This document shows, one piece after another, positions 57,780 to 64,000 of a DNA stretch of 64,000 nucleotides. The position numbers and the translations under genes are program-made. Each line of letters starts with the position of its first letter. Position 1 is the first letter of the stretch. The notes beneath the pieces were generated by a model. It was given only the letters and a program-made list of their open reading frames with translations. It searched no databases and was not told where the DNA came from. This stretch comes from Acholeplasmatales bacterium (GTDB lineage: Bacteria > Bacillota_I > Bacilli_A > Acholeplasmatales > Anaeroplasmataceae), in contig JAFXXC010000077.1 of assembly GCA_017542485.1 (NCBI GenBank), positions 1 through 64,000 on the forward strand. The letters run 5' to 3'.

Positions 57780-59360
57780 CTATTTACCACTATTTCCATA
57801 ATTTGATAAAACTCTAGCTGATGGATCATTAACATTACATCCATCCCAGTTTTTATTAGGCATCCAAAAATCTTTAACCATCTCTGACTGATTAGGATAA
57901 TATTTTTCAAATATTTCTCTATATAATAATGATTCTTTAGTAAATGGCTTAGAATGATTATATTTACTAATCAATCTATTATATTCCTCATCGCTATAAT
58001 AATTATCTGCATATTCTTTTAAATAATTGACCATAGAATGTCCAACGGCATCAGAAAATGCAGCTTTATCTCTTAGTAAAATTTCTTTTGGTAAAATATT
58101 ATCAGCTTCAAAGGCATGTCTTAATAAATATTTACCCATATTATATTTATTCATCTTCATAGAAGGATTAATCGACATAACATATTTAACAAAATCTAAA
58201 TCTCCAAAAGGGACTCTTGCCTCTAATGAATTAACTGATATACATCTATCTGCACGAAGTACATCATACATATGTATTTCATGAATTCTTTTAATTGCTT
58301 CATTTTGAAATTCAATTTCGTTTGGTGCAAAATCTGTATATTTATATCCAAATAATTCATCAGATATTTCACCAGTTAATATGACTCTTATATCAGAAGT
58401 TTCATGAATAGCTTTACATATTAAATACATACCAATAGATGCTCTAATAGTTGTAATATCATATGTTGCCAATGTTTTAATAACGAAATCAAGTGAATTA
58501 AATATATCATCCTTTGTCATAATGATTTCATGATGATTAGAACCAATATATGAAGCAACTAATCTTGCATATTTTAAATCAATTGCATCTATATCCATAC
58601 CTATAGCAAATGTCTCTATCTTTTTATTCAATAATTTAGAAGAAATAGCACATACTAAAGAAGAATCCAAACCACCTGATAATAAGAAACCTATTTTAGC
58701 ATCAGAATCTAATCTTTTTTCTACTCCACTAATTAATTTATCATGTATATTTTTACATACATTATCCAAAGAATCATTAATTATAGATTCAACCTTGGTA
58801 ACATTATTATAGCAAATGAATTTTCCATCAATATAATAATGACCAGGAGGAAATGGTAATATTTTATCCGCCAGACCAACAATATTTTTAGGCTCTGATG
58901 CAAATATAATATTTCCATCTTTATCATATCCATAATATAAAGGTCTAATACCAATTGGATCTCTAGCAGCTATTAATTTTTTTAAATTAGCATCATAAAT
59001 TATTAGTGCAAATTCTGCATCTAACATTTTAAACATATCTAATCCATATTCCTTATATAATGGTAATAAAACTTCGCAATCAGAATTACTTATAAAGCTG
59101 TATCCTTTTTTCTTTAAATCTTCCTTTATAGGCTTAAATCCATATATTTCACCATTACATACTAAATAATTATTATTTAATTTAAATGGCTGCATACCAA
59201 TATCGGTTAATTCCATTATAGCCAATCTATGAAATCCTAAATATCCATTATCTAATTCAATAATTCTAGACATATCTGGACCTCTAGAAATGGTTTTTTC
59301 AAAGCCTTCTTTAAATATATCTATAGGCATTTTGCCTAAACATCCCATAATTGAGCACAT
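57780..59360 (-). CDS. asnB: Glutamine-dependent asparagine synthetase
   Basis: 526 residues from the ATG at 59360. The longer frame (to 59405) would bury the catalytic Cys, whereas MCSIMGC puts Cys at position 2, as required after Met removal; GAAGGAG lies 6 bases upstream. The glutaminase domain has RGPD, FHRLAIM and NGEIYG. The synthetase domain has the pyrophosphate loop LSGGLDSSLV and LTGEISDELFGYKY. It transfers glutamine nitrogen to aspartate. The gene follows amt with a hairpin in the gap. Confidence 0.95.
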   Translation of the reverse strand: MCSIMGCLGKMPIDIFKEGFEKTISRGPDMSRIIELDNGYLGFHRLAIMELTDIGMQPFKLNNNYLVCNGEIYGFKPIKEDLKKKGYSFISNSDCEVLLPLYKEYGLDMFKMLDAEFALIIYDANLKKLIAARDPIGIRPLYYGYDKDGNIIFASEPKNIVGLADKILPFPPGHYYIDGKFICYNNVTKVESIINDSLDNVCKNIHDKLISGVEKRLDSDAKIGFLLSGGLDSSLVCAISSKLLNKKIETFAIGMDIDAIDLKYARLVASYIGSNHHEIIMTKDDIFNSLDFVIKTLATYDITTIRASIGMYLICKAIHETSDIRVILTGEISDELFGYKYTDFAPNEIEFQNEAIKRIHEIHMYDVLRADRCISVNSLEARVPFGDLDFVKYVMSINPSMKMNKYNMGKYLLRHAFEADNILPKEILLRDKAAFSDAVGHSMVNYLKEYADNYYSDEEYNRLISKYNHSKPFTKESLLYREIFEKYYPNQSEMVKDFWMPNKNWDGCNVNDPSARVLSNYGNSGK

Positions 59361-59381
59361 AAAAATCTCCTTCAAAATATT

Positions 59382-59410
59382 TAAGTGTGACCTATCATAG
59401 GACACACTTA
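59382..59410 (-). promoter_or_regulatory. Hairpin between amt and asnB
   Basis: Arms TAAGTGTG and CACACTTA are perfect over 8 bp (59382-59389 with 59403-59410), with further inner pairing CCTA/TAGG around TCA and one A-A mismatch. On the minus strand it ends just before the asnB ribosome site and has only a weak T-run (TAAATATTTT). It may be a partial terminator or an RNA-processing site that lowers asnB-purF relative to amt-glnN. Confidence 0.5.
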
Positions 59411-59416
59411 AATCTA

Positions 59417-61192
59417 TTATTCAACATCCATTAATGCTTTAGCACCAGTTTCACCAGTTCTAACTTTAACTACATCTAAGCAGTTATATACGAAAATCTT
59501 ACCATCTCCGATATGACCTGTATATAATACCTTTCTAGCAGTTTCAATGACTAATGATGCAGGTACATTAGCTACTACAATATCAACCTGAATTTTAGGA
59601 AGAAGTGTAGGTTCAATTTTGATACCACGGTAGTATTCAGGAGCACCCTTTTGAACGCCACAACCCATAACATGAGATACTGTCATACCAGTAATACCAA
59701 TATTCATTAATTCATTCTTTAATGATTCAAAGCTTCTTTCTTTACATACAATTTCAATCTTAGTAATTGTCTTATCACCAGGTTTGATGTTATCTACTGT
59801 AGGCATAGTCTGAACTTCGATTGCTTCGCTTGGTGGAACATCACCATTAACTTCTTTAACAGCATCACCATAATCAAATGATTGAGGTGCCATTGCGAAT
59901 CCAGCATAAGCAGTTACTAAACCATGCTCTGTTAAATCTAATCCTCTAATTTCCTCTTCAGGAGTAGCTCTTAAGAATGGTGTTACACCATCTTTTCTCT
60001 TAATTATTTTCATAACACCAAAGACTAAGAATGCCCAAGCAGCTGTCCATCCACAAACTGCTAATACACCGATAATTTGTACACCTAATTGTGCAAATCC
60101 ATGACCATAGAATAAACCAGTAGTAGTTGAGAATAAACCACAAGCTATTGTTCCCCAAACACCATTTAAGAAGTGAACAGAACAAGCACCAACTGGATCA
60201 TCGATATGACATACTTTATCTAAGAATTCAACACCAAATGTTAGAATGAATCCGGCAACAATACCAATAACAATAGAACCAATTAAATCAACTCTTGAAC
60301 ATCCTGCAGTAATTGCAACAAGTCCAGCTAAAGAACCATTTAATGTCATAGAAACGTCTGGCTTACCATTTCTAATCCATGTAATCATCATAACTGTTAC
60401 AGTAGCTAATGAAGCTGAGATAGTAGTAGTCATAAATACTTGACCCATACCTTCATAGCCATCCCATGATGTACAAGCTGCTGGGTTAAATCCATACCAA
60501 CCGAACCATAGAATGAATACACCTAATGCACCAATTAAAACATTATGACCTTGGATTGCATTAATCTTTGTAACTTTACCATTTTCGTCTCTTACATATT
60601 TTCCAATTCTTGGTCCAACCATCCATGCACCAATTAAGGCAGTTAAACCACCAACCATATGAATAGAACAAGAACCACTTAAATCAATAAATCCTTGAGC
60701 TGTGCCACCATCAAGTAAGCCCCAGCTTTGTGCTAATTGTTGTAACCAACCATTATTTCCAACACCCCAGTTCCAATAAGCTTCAACTGGATAAACAATT
60801 GCAGAAATAATCATAGAATAAATACAATAAGCTTTAAAGTTTGTACGTTCAGCCATAGCACCTGAAACAATTGTTGCTGTAGTTGCACAGAATACTAAGT
60901 TAAAAATGAAATCTGTCCAACCACTCCAAGAAGCTCCTTCACCAAACATACCTTTATATACTTGACCTACATCACCGAATATACCACCAGCAATGGCATT
61001 TTCAGCACAAAGAATAGGCCCACCAATTAAAATAAATGTAATAGTTCCTAGGCAGAAATCCATAAGGTTTTTCATTGTTATATTACCTGTGTTTTTTGCT
61101 CTAGTAAAACCTGCTTCACACATAGCAAAACCAGCTTGCATGAAGAATATTAGCGCAATCGCAATAAGTTTCCAAATCTGATAATCCCACAT
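59417..61192 (-). CDS. amt: Ammonium channel Amt fused to a C-terminal PII signalling domain
   Basis: 591 residues against ~400-450 for ordinary Amt. Residues 1-~415 form the eleven-helix Amt channel: MQAGFAMCEAGFTRAKN, DLSGSCSIHMVGG (first pore His) and DDPVGACSVHFLNGVWGTI (second pore His). A ~60-residue linker leads to a complete PII domain (about 475-591): GVQKG, the T-loop EYYRG with Tyr at about 521, TGHIGDGK (B-loop) and VRTGETG (C-loop). PII senses ATP/ADP and 2-oxoglutarate and plugs Amt; here sensor and channel are one chain. GGGGGAAAAG precedes the ATG; 25 bases after glnN. Confidence 0.95.
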   Translation of the reverse strand: MWDYQIWKLIAIALIFFMQAGFAMCEAGFTRAKNTGNITMKNLMDFCLGTITFILIGGPILCAENAIAGGIFGDVGQVYKGMFGEGASWSGWTDFIFNLVFCATTATIVSGAMAERTNFKAYCIYSMIISAIVYPVEAYWNWGVGNNGWLQQLAQSWGLLDGGTAQGFIDLSGSCSIHMVGGLTALIGAWMVGPRIGKYVRDENGKVTKINAIQGHNVLIGALGVFILWFGWYGFNPAACTSWDGYEGMGQVFMTTTISASLATVTVMMITWIRNGKPDVSMTLNGSLAGLVAITAGCSRVDLIGSIVIGIVAGFILTFGVEFLDKVCHIDDPVGACSVHFLNGVWGTIACGLFSTTTGLFYGHGFAQLGVQIIGVLAVCGWTAAWAFLVFGVMKIIKRKDGVTPFLRATPEEEIRGLDLTEHGLVTAYAGFAMAPQSFDYGDAVKEVNGDVPPSEAIEVQTMPTVDNIKPGDKTITKIEIVCKERSFESLKNELMNIGITGMTVSHVMGCGVQKGAPEYYRGIKIEPTLLPKIQVDIVVANVPASLVIETARKVLYTGHIGDGKIFVYNCLDVVKVRTGETGAKALMDVE

Positions 61193-61217: not shown

Positions 61218-63305
61218 TTATTTTACACTATATAATAAATCACCATATGATGGAACTGGCCAATCACGTGAATCAACATCTAATTCAATACTATCAATGA
61301 TTTCTCTTGCTTCCTCCATTAATGGAAGAACATTGTTCTTATAGTACATTGATAATTCAGTACAATCACTAATGTTCTTAGCACCATCTAATACTAACTT
61401 AAGATCTAATTTAACTTTATAAGCCTTAGCTAATTCACCACTAATCTTATTTAAGATTTCTAATTCGTATGAATCACTAACACCCAAACTCTTCTTTAAT
61501 GAAGCTGTTTCAGCCAAATTCTTTGTATATTTTGATATTGCAGGAAGATAATCCTTATTTAACATATCTAAGCAAGTTAATGCTTCAATATTTACAATCT
61601 TTGAATAATGCTCTTGACCAATTTCATATCTAGCATTAATTTCATTTACTGAATAAATATCATGAGAAGTAAATAATTTAACATTCTTTTCATGTAAATA
61701 ATACTGTAATGCTTCTGGAGTAGATTTTAAATTTAATAATCCTCTCTTTTTAGCTTCTTGAACCCATGAATCATCATAACCATTACCATTAAATATAATT
61801 CTCTTATGCTTAATAATTGTTTCTTTAATTAATTCATGTAACTCAGTACTAAAATCTTTAGCCTTCTCTAATCTATCAGCGAATTGTCTTAATGATTCAG
61901 ATACAGCAGTATTTAACATAATATTTGCACATGAAATAGAATCAGAAGAGCCTAAAGCTCTAAATTCGAATTTATTACCTGTAAATGCAAATGGAGAAGT
62001 TCTATTTCTATCAGTAGTATCCTTTGGTAGAGGTGGCAATACATCTGCACCAATCTTAAGGAATGTTTTACCATCTGTTTTAAGAGGCTTTCCTGTTTCA
62101 ATTGAATCGATTACAGCTTGTAATTCAGAACCTAAGAAAATTGAAATAATAGCAGGAGGTGCCTCGTTTGCACCTAAACGGAAATCGTTAGATGCACTCG
62201 CAACAGATATTCTTAATAAATCTTGATATTCATCAACTGCCTTAATAACAGATACTAAGAATAATAAGAACTGTGCATTTTCAGCAGGAGTATCACCTGG
62301 CTCTAGTAAATTGATTCCTGTATTAGTAGACATTGACCAGTTGTTATGCTTACCAGAACCATTAACGCCTTTAAATGGCTTTTCATGTAGTAAACAAACT
62401 AAATCATGTTTTTTAGCAATTCTTTGCATCATTTCCATAGTAATTTGATTGTGGTCAGCCGCAATATTTGTTGTAGCGAATATTGGTGCTAACTCATGTT
62501 GAGCAGGAGCAACTTCGTTATGCTCTGTTTTAGCAAGAATTCCTAATTTCCATAATTCTTCATTTAAGTCATTCATAAATTCTTGAACTCTAGTTTTAAT
62601 AGAACCAAAATAATGATCATCAAGTTCCTGTCCTTTAGGGGCCATAGCTCCAAACAATGTTCTACCTGTGTAAATTAAATCTTTACGTTTTTCATACATT
62701 TCCTTATCAATTAAGAAATATTCTTGTTCAGGACCAACAGTTGTTTTAACTGAAGTAACACTATTTTGACCAAATAATTTTAATATTCTTAAAGCTTCTT
62801 TATTTAATGCCTGCATTGATCTTAATAATGGAGTCTTTTTATCAAGTGCCTCACCACCATAAGAACAGAATGCAGTTGGGATACATAAGCATTTATCTTT
62901 GATGAATGCATATGATGTAGGATCCCATGCTGTATATCCTCTTGCTTCACATGTTGCTCTTAATCCACCAGATGGGAATGAAGAAGCATCAGGCTCGCCT
63001 TTGATTAGTTCTTTACCTTTGAATTCCATGATTATACTTCCATCATCTTCAGGTGAAATGAATGAATCATGCTTTTCAGCAGTAGAACCAGTCATAGGTT
63101 GAAACCAGTGTGTATAATGTGTAGCTCCATTTTCAATTGCCCAATCCTTCATTGCCTGTGCAACAGAATTGGCAACACTAATATCTAATTCCTTTCCATC
63201 ATTAATTGTTTTCTTTAGTTTTTTATAAACATCAGAAGACAATTTAGATTTCATTACCTTATCATTAAAGACAAGGCATCCAAAATAATCTGTAACCTGT
63301 TTCAT
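61218..63305 (-). CDS. glnN: Glutamine synthetase type III
   Basis: 695 residues, the size of GSIII (about 700-730), not the ~450 of GSI. Diagnostic stretches: [83 protein letters not shown] and [19 protein letters not shown]. It makes glutamine from glutamate, ammonium and ATP in the cytoplasm. AGGAGG lies 6 bases before the ATG. First gene of the minus-strand nitrogen operon, behind a consensus promoter and an attenuator. Confidence 0.97.
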
Positions 63306-63316
63306 GTTTTCCTCCT

Positions 63317-63362
63317 AAAAAAAATGGGCAAGGAGCTGTGATTTTTCACTGGCTTCCTTGCC
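63317..63362 (-). terminator. Leader terminator/attenuator of the glnN operon with ANTAR-like hexaloop
   Basis: On the minus strand, between promoter and ribosome site, GGCAAGGA (63362-63355) pairs with TCCTTGCC (63334-63327) over 8 bp. Inner pairs are GC/GC and GTGA/TCAC, and CATTTTTTTT follows: a complete intrinsic terminator. The 5' arm can instead form GGC-AAGGAA-GCC (63362-63351), a 3-bp stem with a hexaloop with A at position 1 and G at 4, the pattern bound by ANTAR proteins. A second small hairpin GTG-AAAAAT-CAC follows, with A but no G4. The two folds exclude each other, as in ANTAR antitermination. Confidence 0.75.
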
Positions 63363-63372
63363 TTATGCCACC

Positions 63373-63402
63373 ATTATAAAACCAAAATATTTGTCTTGTC
63401 AA
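63373..63402 (-). promoter_or_regulatory. Promoter of the glnN-amt-asnB-purF operon
   Basis: The minus strand has TTGACA (63402-63397), 18-bp spacer, TATAAT (63378-63373). Both hexamers are perfect. Start is near 63366, directly before the attenuator. Confidence 0.9.
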
Positions 63403-63516
63403 CAGAAAAATGAATAAAATTTTGCAAATTATTCGATTTTAGTACAAAAATTTCAATTTATAACCATTATACGAGAATAAAATTCTAAAAAAATCAAAAA
63501 AATAAAATATTTGTGT

Positions 63517-63654: not shown

Positions 63655-64000
63655 ATGAAATTCAAAAATAAGTTAAATGTTGTTATTTTATCTGATTTTG
63701 AAAATTTTAATAAGAACATTAATAAAATATTTGCCCCTCTTCCAATTAAATCAATCAATTTTTCCTTTATCGATTCTATAAGTTTGATTAAGGATATTGT
63801 TGATGCTGATAATGATTTACTAATTATTAATAAAGCAGCCTACACAGAGGATGAGACAAAGGAATTGTTAAAGTATGATTATAATACAATGGGTGTAATT
63901 GTAATTATTGATACATATTTTAAATTTGATTTGTTATTTAAAAATGTAGATAGTGGAATTATTACTATTAGAAGACCTGTTACAGTAAACAAATTTATCG
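63655..64000 (+). CDS. Receiver-like (probable ANTAR) response regulator, 3' truncated
   Basis: Open to the window end, 115 codons visible. The fold pattern is receiver-like: LNVVILSDFENF (strand 1), DNDLLIINKAAYTEDE (strand 3), MGVIVIIDTYF (strand 4), GIITIRRPVTVNKFI (strand 5). The phosphoacceptor Asp at the end of strand 3 is replaced (INK), so it is a pseudo-receiver. Degenerate receivers fused to a C-terminal ANTAR RNA-binding domain are typical neighbours of glnN/amt loci in Firmicutes; the ANTAR part would lie beyond the window. GGGGTG is 9 bases before ATG 63655. Divergent from glnN. Confidence 0.6.
   Translation, partial: MKFKNKLNVVILSDFENFNKNINKIFAPLPIKSINFSFIDSISLIKDIVDADNDLLIINKAAYTEDETKELLKYDYNTMGVIVIIDTYFKFDLLFKNVDSGIITIRRPVTVNKFI

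Follow-up and report, generated by a model that had tools for sequence, protein, structure and literature searches.

A single-hexaloop attenuator predicted to place a glnN operon under ANTAR-protein antitermination in an Acholeplasmatales bacterium

The window, that is, the whole stretch of 64,000 nucleotides analysed here, comprises positions 1 to 64,000 of contig JAFXXC010000077.1 in the 1.69-Mb draft genome of an Acholeplasmatales bacterium (GCA_017542485.1). The relatives of this bacterium are Anaeroplasma/Acholeplasmatales from the gut, largely from the rumen, and A. bactoclasticum ATCC 27112 is among the records of the matched relatives. Near the end of the window, glnN, amtB and an asnB-like open reading frame follow one another closely, and a gene for a putative regulator diverges from them (Table 1). 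The PII domain fused to the Amt protein adjoins glnN and is a candidate nitrogen sensor for the regulator. Beyond the regulator gene lie genes identified by inspection as LL-diaminopimelate aminotransferase-, pyrG- and gltB-like.

Table 1. Features of the glnN region, given as positions in the window.
Feature	Position	Strand	Basis or remark
−35 sequence, TTGACA	63397..63402	−	−35/−10 arrangement kept in homologous leaders
−10 sequence, TATAAT	63373..63378	−	promoter scoring; 18-nt spacer (ideal, 17); kept in homologous leaders
Predicted transcription start	63366 (about)	−	inferred from the −10 sequence (7th base after it)
Hexaloop hairpin, GGC[AAGGAA]GCC (A1, A2, G4)	63351..63362	−	antiterminator, predicted ANTAR binding site
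Intrinsic terminator stem-loop	63327..63362	−	8-bp outer stem; apical GTGA AAAA TCAC
T8 tract of the terminator	63317..63324	−	sequence
glnN ribosome binding site, AGGAGG	63311..63316	−	directly after the T tract
glnN, glutamine synthetase type III	61218..63305	−	PF12437, PF00120, PF18318
amtB fused to a PII (GlnK-like) domain	59417..61192	−	PF00909 and PF00543, PII C-terminal; 25-nt gap after glnN; operon by position
Asparagine synthetase-like (asnB) ORF	57780..59405	−	named by sequence inspection; 11-nt gap after amtB; operon by position
Divergent NitR/AmiR-like regulator, receiver-like domain and ANTAR	63655..64000, continuing to about 64251 in the contig; ANTAR, 64063-64200	+	domain and profile searches

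The glnN promoter matched the σ70-type sequence at 12 of 12 positions and was the top-scoring site of the region. The predicted leader is approximately 61 nt long and reaches to the ATG of glnN at 63305; its hexaloop hairpin begins 4 nt from the predicted start. The strand that forms this hairpin is also the 5′ arm of the terminator, in which GGCAAGGA (63362-63355) pairs with TCCTTGCC (63334-63327), followed by CA and then T8. Folding gave a minimum free energy (MFE) of −19.3 kcal/mol (z = −2.45), and 3 of 200 shuffled sequences folded equally well. When successive prefixes of the growing leader were folded, the hexaloop hairpin was contained in the MFE structure until about +34, and the terminator was formed from +36. 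Since the two structures are mutually exclusive, the leader constitutes an attenuator. An automatic terminator scan missed the terminator because the loop maximum of the scan is 8 nt. The initial annotation had described a perfect promoter followed within 4 nt of its predicted start by a terminator with an 8-bp stem and T8, all of which were confirmed, apart from a promoter spacer of 18 rather than the ideal 17 nt; the exclusion that it had proposed between this terminator and an ANTAR-type hexaloop with A1 and G4 is borne out by the switch between +34 and +36. The pattern GGCAARGANGCC occurs once in the 64 kb when up to one mismatch is allowed, and the combination of promoter and hexaloop occurs once in the whole genome.

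An AT-rich motif, GAATAAAATTT/AAATTTTATTC, is found at 63422-63500 of the window (minus strand), approximately 20 and 83 bp upstream of the glnN −35 sequence, the copies being 63 bp apart. This motif, which was picked post hoc, is common to many Anaeroplasma glnN promoters (25 copies compared with 3.5 in shuffled sequences), and it is possibly the site of a DNA-binding co-regulator.

The ANTAR domain (PF03861) of the divergent regulator scored 27.8 bits on the protein, against a cut-off of 27.3, and 30.4 bits in the genome search. The initial annotation had tentatively assigned the gene to the ANTAR class and had made this depend on a domain beyond position 64000, where the domain above the Pfam cut-off indeed lies. 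A profile of the regulator family matched PdtaR (1s8n), EutV (6wsh) and AmiR (1qo0) in PDB, whereas a phmmer search of PDB with the single regulator sequence gave no match. At the position of the phospho-acceptor Asp, 16 of 19 family members, including the window protein, have Asn, two have Ser and one has Asp; input from a kinase is therefore unlikely. In EutV, Arg142, Lys149, Glu160 and Tyr164 contact the RNA, and Tyr164 stacks on G4 (PMC8934654). The equivalents of Lys149 and Glu160 are invariant in the 19 regulator sequences, the Tyr164 position is occupied by His, as in AmiR, and Arg142 is not conserved.

A second ANTAR protein is encoded in the same genome between glyA and an rnfC-like gene (L004 4219-4782, minus strand, G000:C80; also L180, L181 and L182). 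This rnf-linked gene is kept across the genus, and no other ANTAR gene was found in A. bactoclasticum (G018) or in G014. Because these two genomes have the leader, the divergent regulator is not its universal reader. No hexaloop leader was seen in the stretches read of the glyA-ANTAR-rnf operon of the window's genome.

For comparison, glnN leaders were drawn from related genomes and 80 named loci. The window and all 28 other named loci of the Anaeroplasma clade showed a promoter, a distance of 4-8 nt (17 in two), one hexaloop, an overlapping terminator and a ribosome binding site. In an unselected test of 79 glnN leaders, in which the promoter was scored independently of the loop, an A1..G4 hexaloop hairpin was found in 51, compared with a mean of 2.95 and a maximum of 10 in shuffled sequences, and no other pair of letters at positions 1 and 4 exceeded 11. 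The positives consist of 29 leaders from the window and its clade and of 22 leaders of the same type among the 50 more distant, mostly clostridial, ones. In 50 of the positives, the first hexaloop lay between +4 and +17 relative to the predicted start, and exactly one hexaloop was present in 44, the window leader included. In four clostridial leaders (L103, L105, L106 and L109), two serial promoter-proximal attenuators were observed, both of them complete with hexaloop and terminator, and 65-98 nt separate the two loops. The remaining second loops were mostly terminator apices, in line with chance. The glnN leaders of L143 and L149 have a seemingly one-base-larger or degenerate loop, for example ACAGC[AGCAGGC]GCTGT in L143, and were excluded from the hexaloop count.

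These counts bear on the possibility that the site is an ordinary dual-hexaloop ANTAR site, with either a degenerate second hairpin in the terminator loop or an upstream hexaloop in a longer transcript. ANTAR targets have been defined as two hexaloop hairpins, P1 and P2, separated by a linker of 5-12 nt in eut and 2-25 nt in an actinobacterial search, with P2 overlapping the terminator (PMC3369931, PMC8934654, PMC8164766). A second short hairpin does often follow the first within 1-3 nt, and true dual hexaloops precede the second, divergent gene for type III glutamine synthetase (GSIII) in two genomes of the genus (L065 1403-1480 and L064 1408-1460, the latter on the reverse strand of L064). 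In L065 they are GAGC[AAAGGT]GCTT and TTGC[AAAGTC]GCAA, the second lying inside the terminator, and L064 also has two hairpins. Because the same scan recovered both hairpins in these leaders, the method detects dual sites where they are present. The two genomes are without the window-type glnN, and in one of the two (G005, 78% complete) no ANTAR gene was seen. The inner hairpin of the window leader (GTG AAAAAT CAC), however, is not conserved as a hexaloop: it is absent in L070 and L076, and it shows A1 and G4 in L080 and L137 only, which is about the chance level for 34 leaders. Upstream of the hexaloop, no A1..G4 hexaloop was found in the window leader, and the few nucleotides between the predicted start and the hexaloop could not hold another one. 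Leaders with a GAAC-type stem, described below, also start at about the predicted +1. A dual site is thus unlikely. The hexaloop that the initial annotation had expected in homologous leaders is conserved both in the clade and among distant loci, but its variant two-hairpin site, in which hairpin 1 overlaps the terminator, gives way to one conserved 5′-end hexaloop, the inner hairpin being the terminator apex.

In an alignment of 34 leaders, A1, A2 and G4 of the loop were invariant, whereas positions 3, 5 and 6 took four, two and four letters, respectively; the invariance of A1 and G4 is partly built in here because the 34 rows were picked by the A..G loop pattern, a flaw from which the unselected count is free. 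Positions 3, 5 and 6 were paired in 25, 32 and 28 of the 34 predicted terminators, respectively. They vary nevertheless, so pairing alone does not freeze a position. A2 and the last base of the 3′ stem were each unpaired in 19 of the 34 and are both conserved, which terminator pairing alone is insufficient to explain. In L101, the predicted terminator leaves the 5′ stem unused, and the hairpin nevertheless persists, with an A-U pair in compensation; this G-C to A-U change was the one compensatory change found in the hexaloop stem. The 3-bp stem varies so little that its covariation counts are weak, and those on the terminator stem were uninformative. The argument therefore rests on the loop-letter pattern and on the exchange of stems between genes. 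Such a pattern would be the signature expected of a loop read by a protein.

The exchange of stems was seen at genes other than glnN. Many relatives have a gltB-like gene or glnA in the position divergent to glnN, and the promoter of this gene is followed, from about the predicted +1, by GAAC[AAxGxx]GTTC and then by a terminator. Unlike stems around the same loop elsewhere are GAAC/GTTC, CAGC/GCTG and AGGC/GTCT. The GAAC-type leaders, with another stem around the same predicted loop at the same place, provide the strongest structural covariation that was observed. Pattern and model searches of the window's genome found no second hexaloop site; the single match to the GAAC-type pattern is without a promoter and apparently within a coding sequence, and it was treated as chance. 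Run over 27 genus genomes, a covariance model built here (R1) retrieved the glnN leader. Its weak extra matches proved on inspection to be ordinary terminators or coding sequence, which argues against a wider GGC-type regulon.

The same observations make it quite improbable that the conserved GGCNNNNNNGCC acts at the DNA level, as an operator immediately after the start, with the terminator serving as a simple attenuator or belonging to a small-RNA gene. GGCNNNNNNGCC is a hyphenated DNA palindrome at about +5 to +16, and the region upstream of the promoter has the recurrent AT-rich DNA motif. However, the invariant inner letters A1, A2 and G4 are asymmetric, the stem letters differ among genes while loop pattern and position are kept, and the family of the adjacent regulator has an RNA-binding rather than a DNA-binding domain.

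The hexaloop also tracks ANTAR genes. All 24 genomes of the relatives set that have a glnN of at least 79% identity, the window's own genome included, encode an ANTAR protein, and a relative with no ANTAR gene (G012) has a glnN-type gene without the element. Among more distant genomes, an ANTAR gene was present in 23 of 24 with the hexaloop compared with 13 of 26 without it (p = 0.0003, with kinship ignored; since the species are related, such p-values overstate independence). An ANTAR gene lay within 3 kb in 18 of 52 cases with the hexaloop and in 0 of 28 without it, kinship again being ignored. In one hexaloop-bearing draft genome (L142), no ANTAR gene was seen. As for the protein-dependent antitermination of nitrogen genes put forward in the initial annotation, the ANTAR regulator, the conserved loop and this co-occurrence speak for it, whereas the dual-hairpin arrangement assumed with it did not hold.

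Slightly less probable than an operator is that the main product is the terminated RNA of approximately 50 nt, which would titrate the ANTAR protein like EutX/Rli55 instead of controlling glnN. A strong promoter with an early terminator would suit such a role, and a hexaloop-bearing sponge RNA is known for EutV (PMC8934654). In the terminated RNA, however, the hexaloop strand is locked within the terminator, and in the Anaeroplasma-clade homologues the element lies directly before the glnN ribosome binding site; a sponge role and glnN control could coexist. Least probable of all is an attenuator with another reader (a glutamine riboswitch, a T-box, a GlnR-type or a ribosome-dependent system) and an incidental A/G loop pattern: the tie between regulator and leader is itself predicted, but no Rfam family matched the glnN leader or 17 related loci at gathering or loose thresholds, the leader has no room for a T-box or a leader peptide, and the hexaloop co-occurs with ANTAR genes.

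We consider it probable, on the evidence of the sequences, that the glnN-amtB(PII)-asnB operon is under ANTAR-protein antitermination at a single predicted hexaloop, which precedes every other structured element of the RNA. The polymerase would start about 4 nt before GGC[AAGGAA]GCC, so that the hexaloop hairpin would fold first. When active regulator is absent, the hexaloop strand would re-pair with TCCTTGCC into the terminator, and an RNA of approximately 50 nt would be released. Contact of an ANTAR protein with A1 and G4 of the loop would hold the 5′ arm of the terminator, and transcription would proceed into glnN. The divergent NitR-like protein is most likely the reader, and the genome's other ANTAR protein may be a further one. 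Because the receiver domain is without the phospho-acceptor Asp, activation is probably not by a kinase; a partner or ligand that reports nitrogen status, the Amt-fused PII domain being one candidate, would probably serve instead. The hexaloop at +5 would be exposed while the polymerase is near the promoter, and promoter escape or early pausing may buy the time that P1 provides elsewhere. The analysis establishes the layout of the leader, its two exclusive folds, the pattern of conservation, the ANTAR domain, and the linkage and co-occurrence of the genes; the start site, binding, antitermination, reader identity and signal are all elements that we infer.

With less confidence, we lean towards the view that such leaders form a widespread class at Bacillota nitrogen genes, with one hexaloop at the 5′ end and promoter proximity replacing P1, that this class was missed by dual-hairpin searches, and that a second hexaloop is not intrinsic to ANTAR antitermination. 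In EutV-dependent control, removal of P1 or a change of the linker abolished or strongly lowered expression (PMC3369931, PMC8934654), which implies that a lone hexaloop might not suffice. On the other hand, the EutV-RNA structure identified a single hexaloop as the minimal unit bound, and the authors of that work expected lone sites chiefly in settings in which a moving polymerase sets no time limit (PMC8934654). The glnN leaders differ from this expectation in that their lone sites do face such a limit.

The predicted system resembles EutV/eutP of Enterococcus faecalis (PMC3369931, PMC8934654) in its protein with receiver-like and ANTAR domains, in its A1/G4 hexaloop on a stem of at least 3 bp with a C-G closing pair, and in the strand common to hexaloop and intrinsic terminator. 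It differs in having one hexaloop at the 5′ end of the RNA rather than two with a 5-12-nt linker, and the 5′ arm of the terminator contains, in most glnN leaders, the hairpin as a whole rather than chiefly its 3′ side. Unlike EutV, the regulator is without the phospho-acceptor Asp, and no kinase gene was noticed adjoining it. ANTAR control of nitrogen genes is shared with AmiR (Pseudomonas amidase operon) and NasR/NasT (nitrate assimilation), and the pseudo-receiver and the His at the Tyr164 position are further likenesses to AmiR. The target RNAs of AmiR and NasR, however, are described as having two hairpins (PMC3369931), compared with the single hexaloop here, and nothing resembling an AmiC or NasS sensor gene was noticed next to the glnN regulator. 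Relatives of the present locus include glnA-linked ones, and glnN diverges from its regulator gene. In the first respect they are like clostridial glnA-nitR, where the ANTAR regulator gene adjoins that for glutamine synthetase, and in the second unlike it. Target genes of the same kind, glutamate synthase and other nitrogen genes, appear in predicted ANTAR regulons of Desulfotomaculum and others (PMC3369931). Those regulons were found with a dual-hairpin model, which would miss single sites such as the glnN leaders; some of the clostridial loci may nevertheless be among the sites predicted there. The literature searched, with most subscription journals outside its scope, contained no description of single-hexaloop attenuators. 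Why two hexaloops are needed if a dimer binds one, and what single hexaloops do, have been raised explicitly as open questions (PMC8934654). About 50 natural leaders in which promoter, hexaloop and terminator lie near one another make the question directly testable, and the dual-hexaloop leaders that precede a second GSIII gene within the genus offer a built-in comparison. For Anaeroplasma and for those gut clostridia whose glutamine synthetase is of type III, the element is in addition a candidate nitrogen switch, and it provides a tighter search motif. The best reading of the glnN leader, its function being predicted, is a new form of ANTAR antitermination that is promoter-proximal and, unlike the dual-hairpin targets described for EutV, AmiR and NasR, has a single hexaloop.
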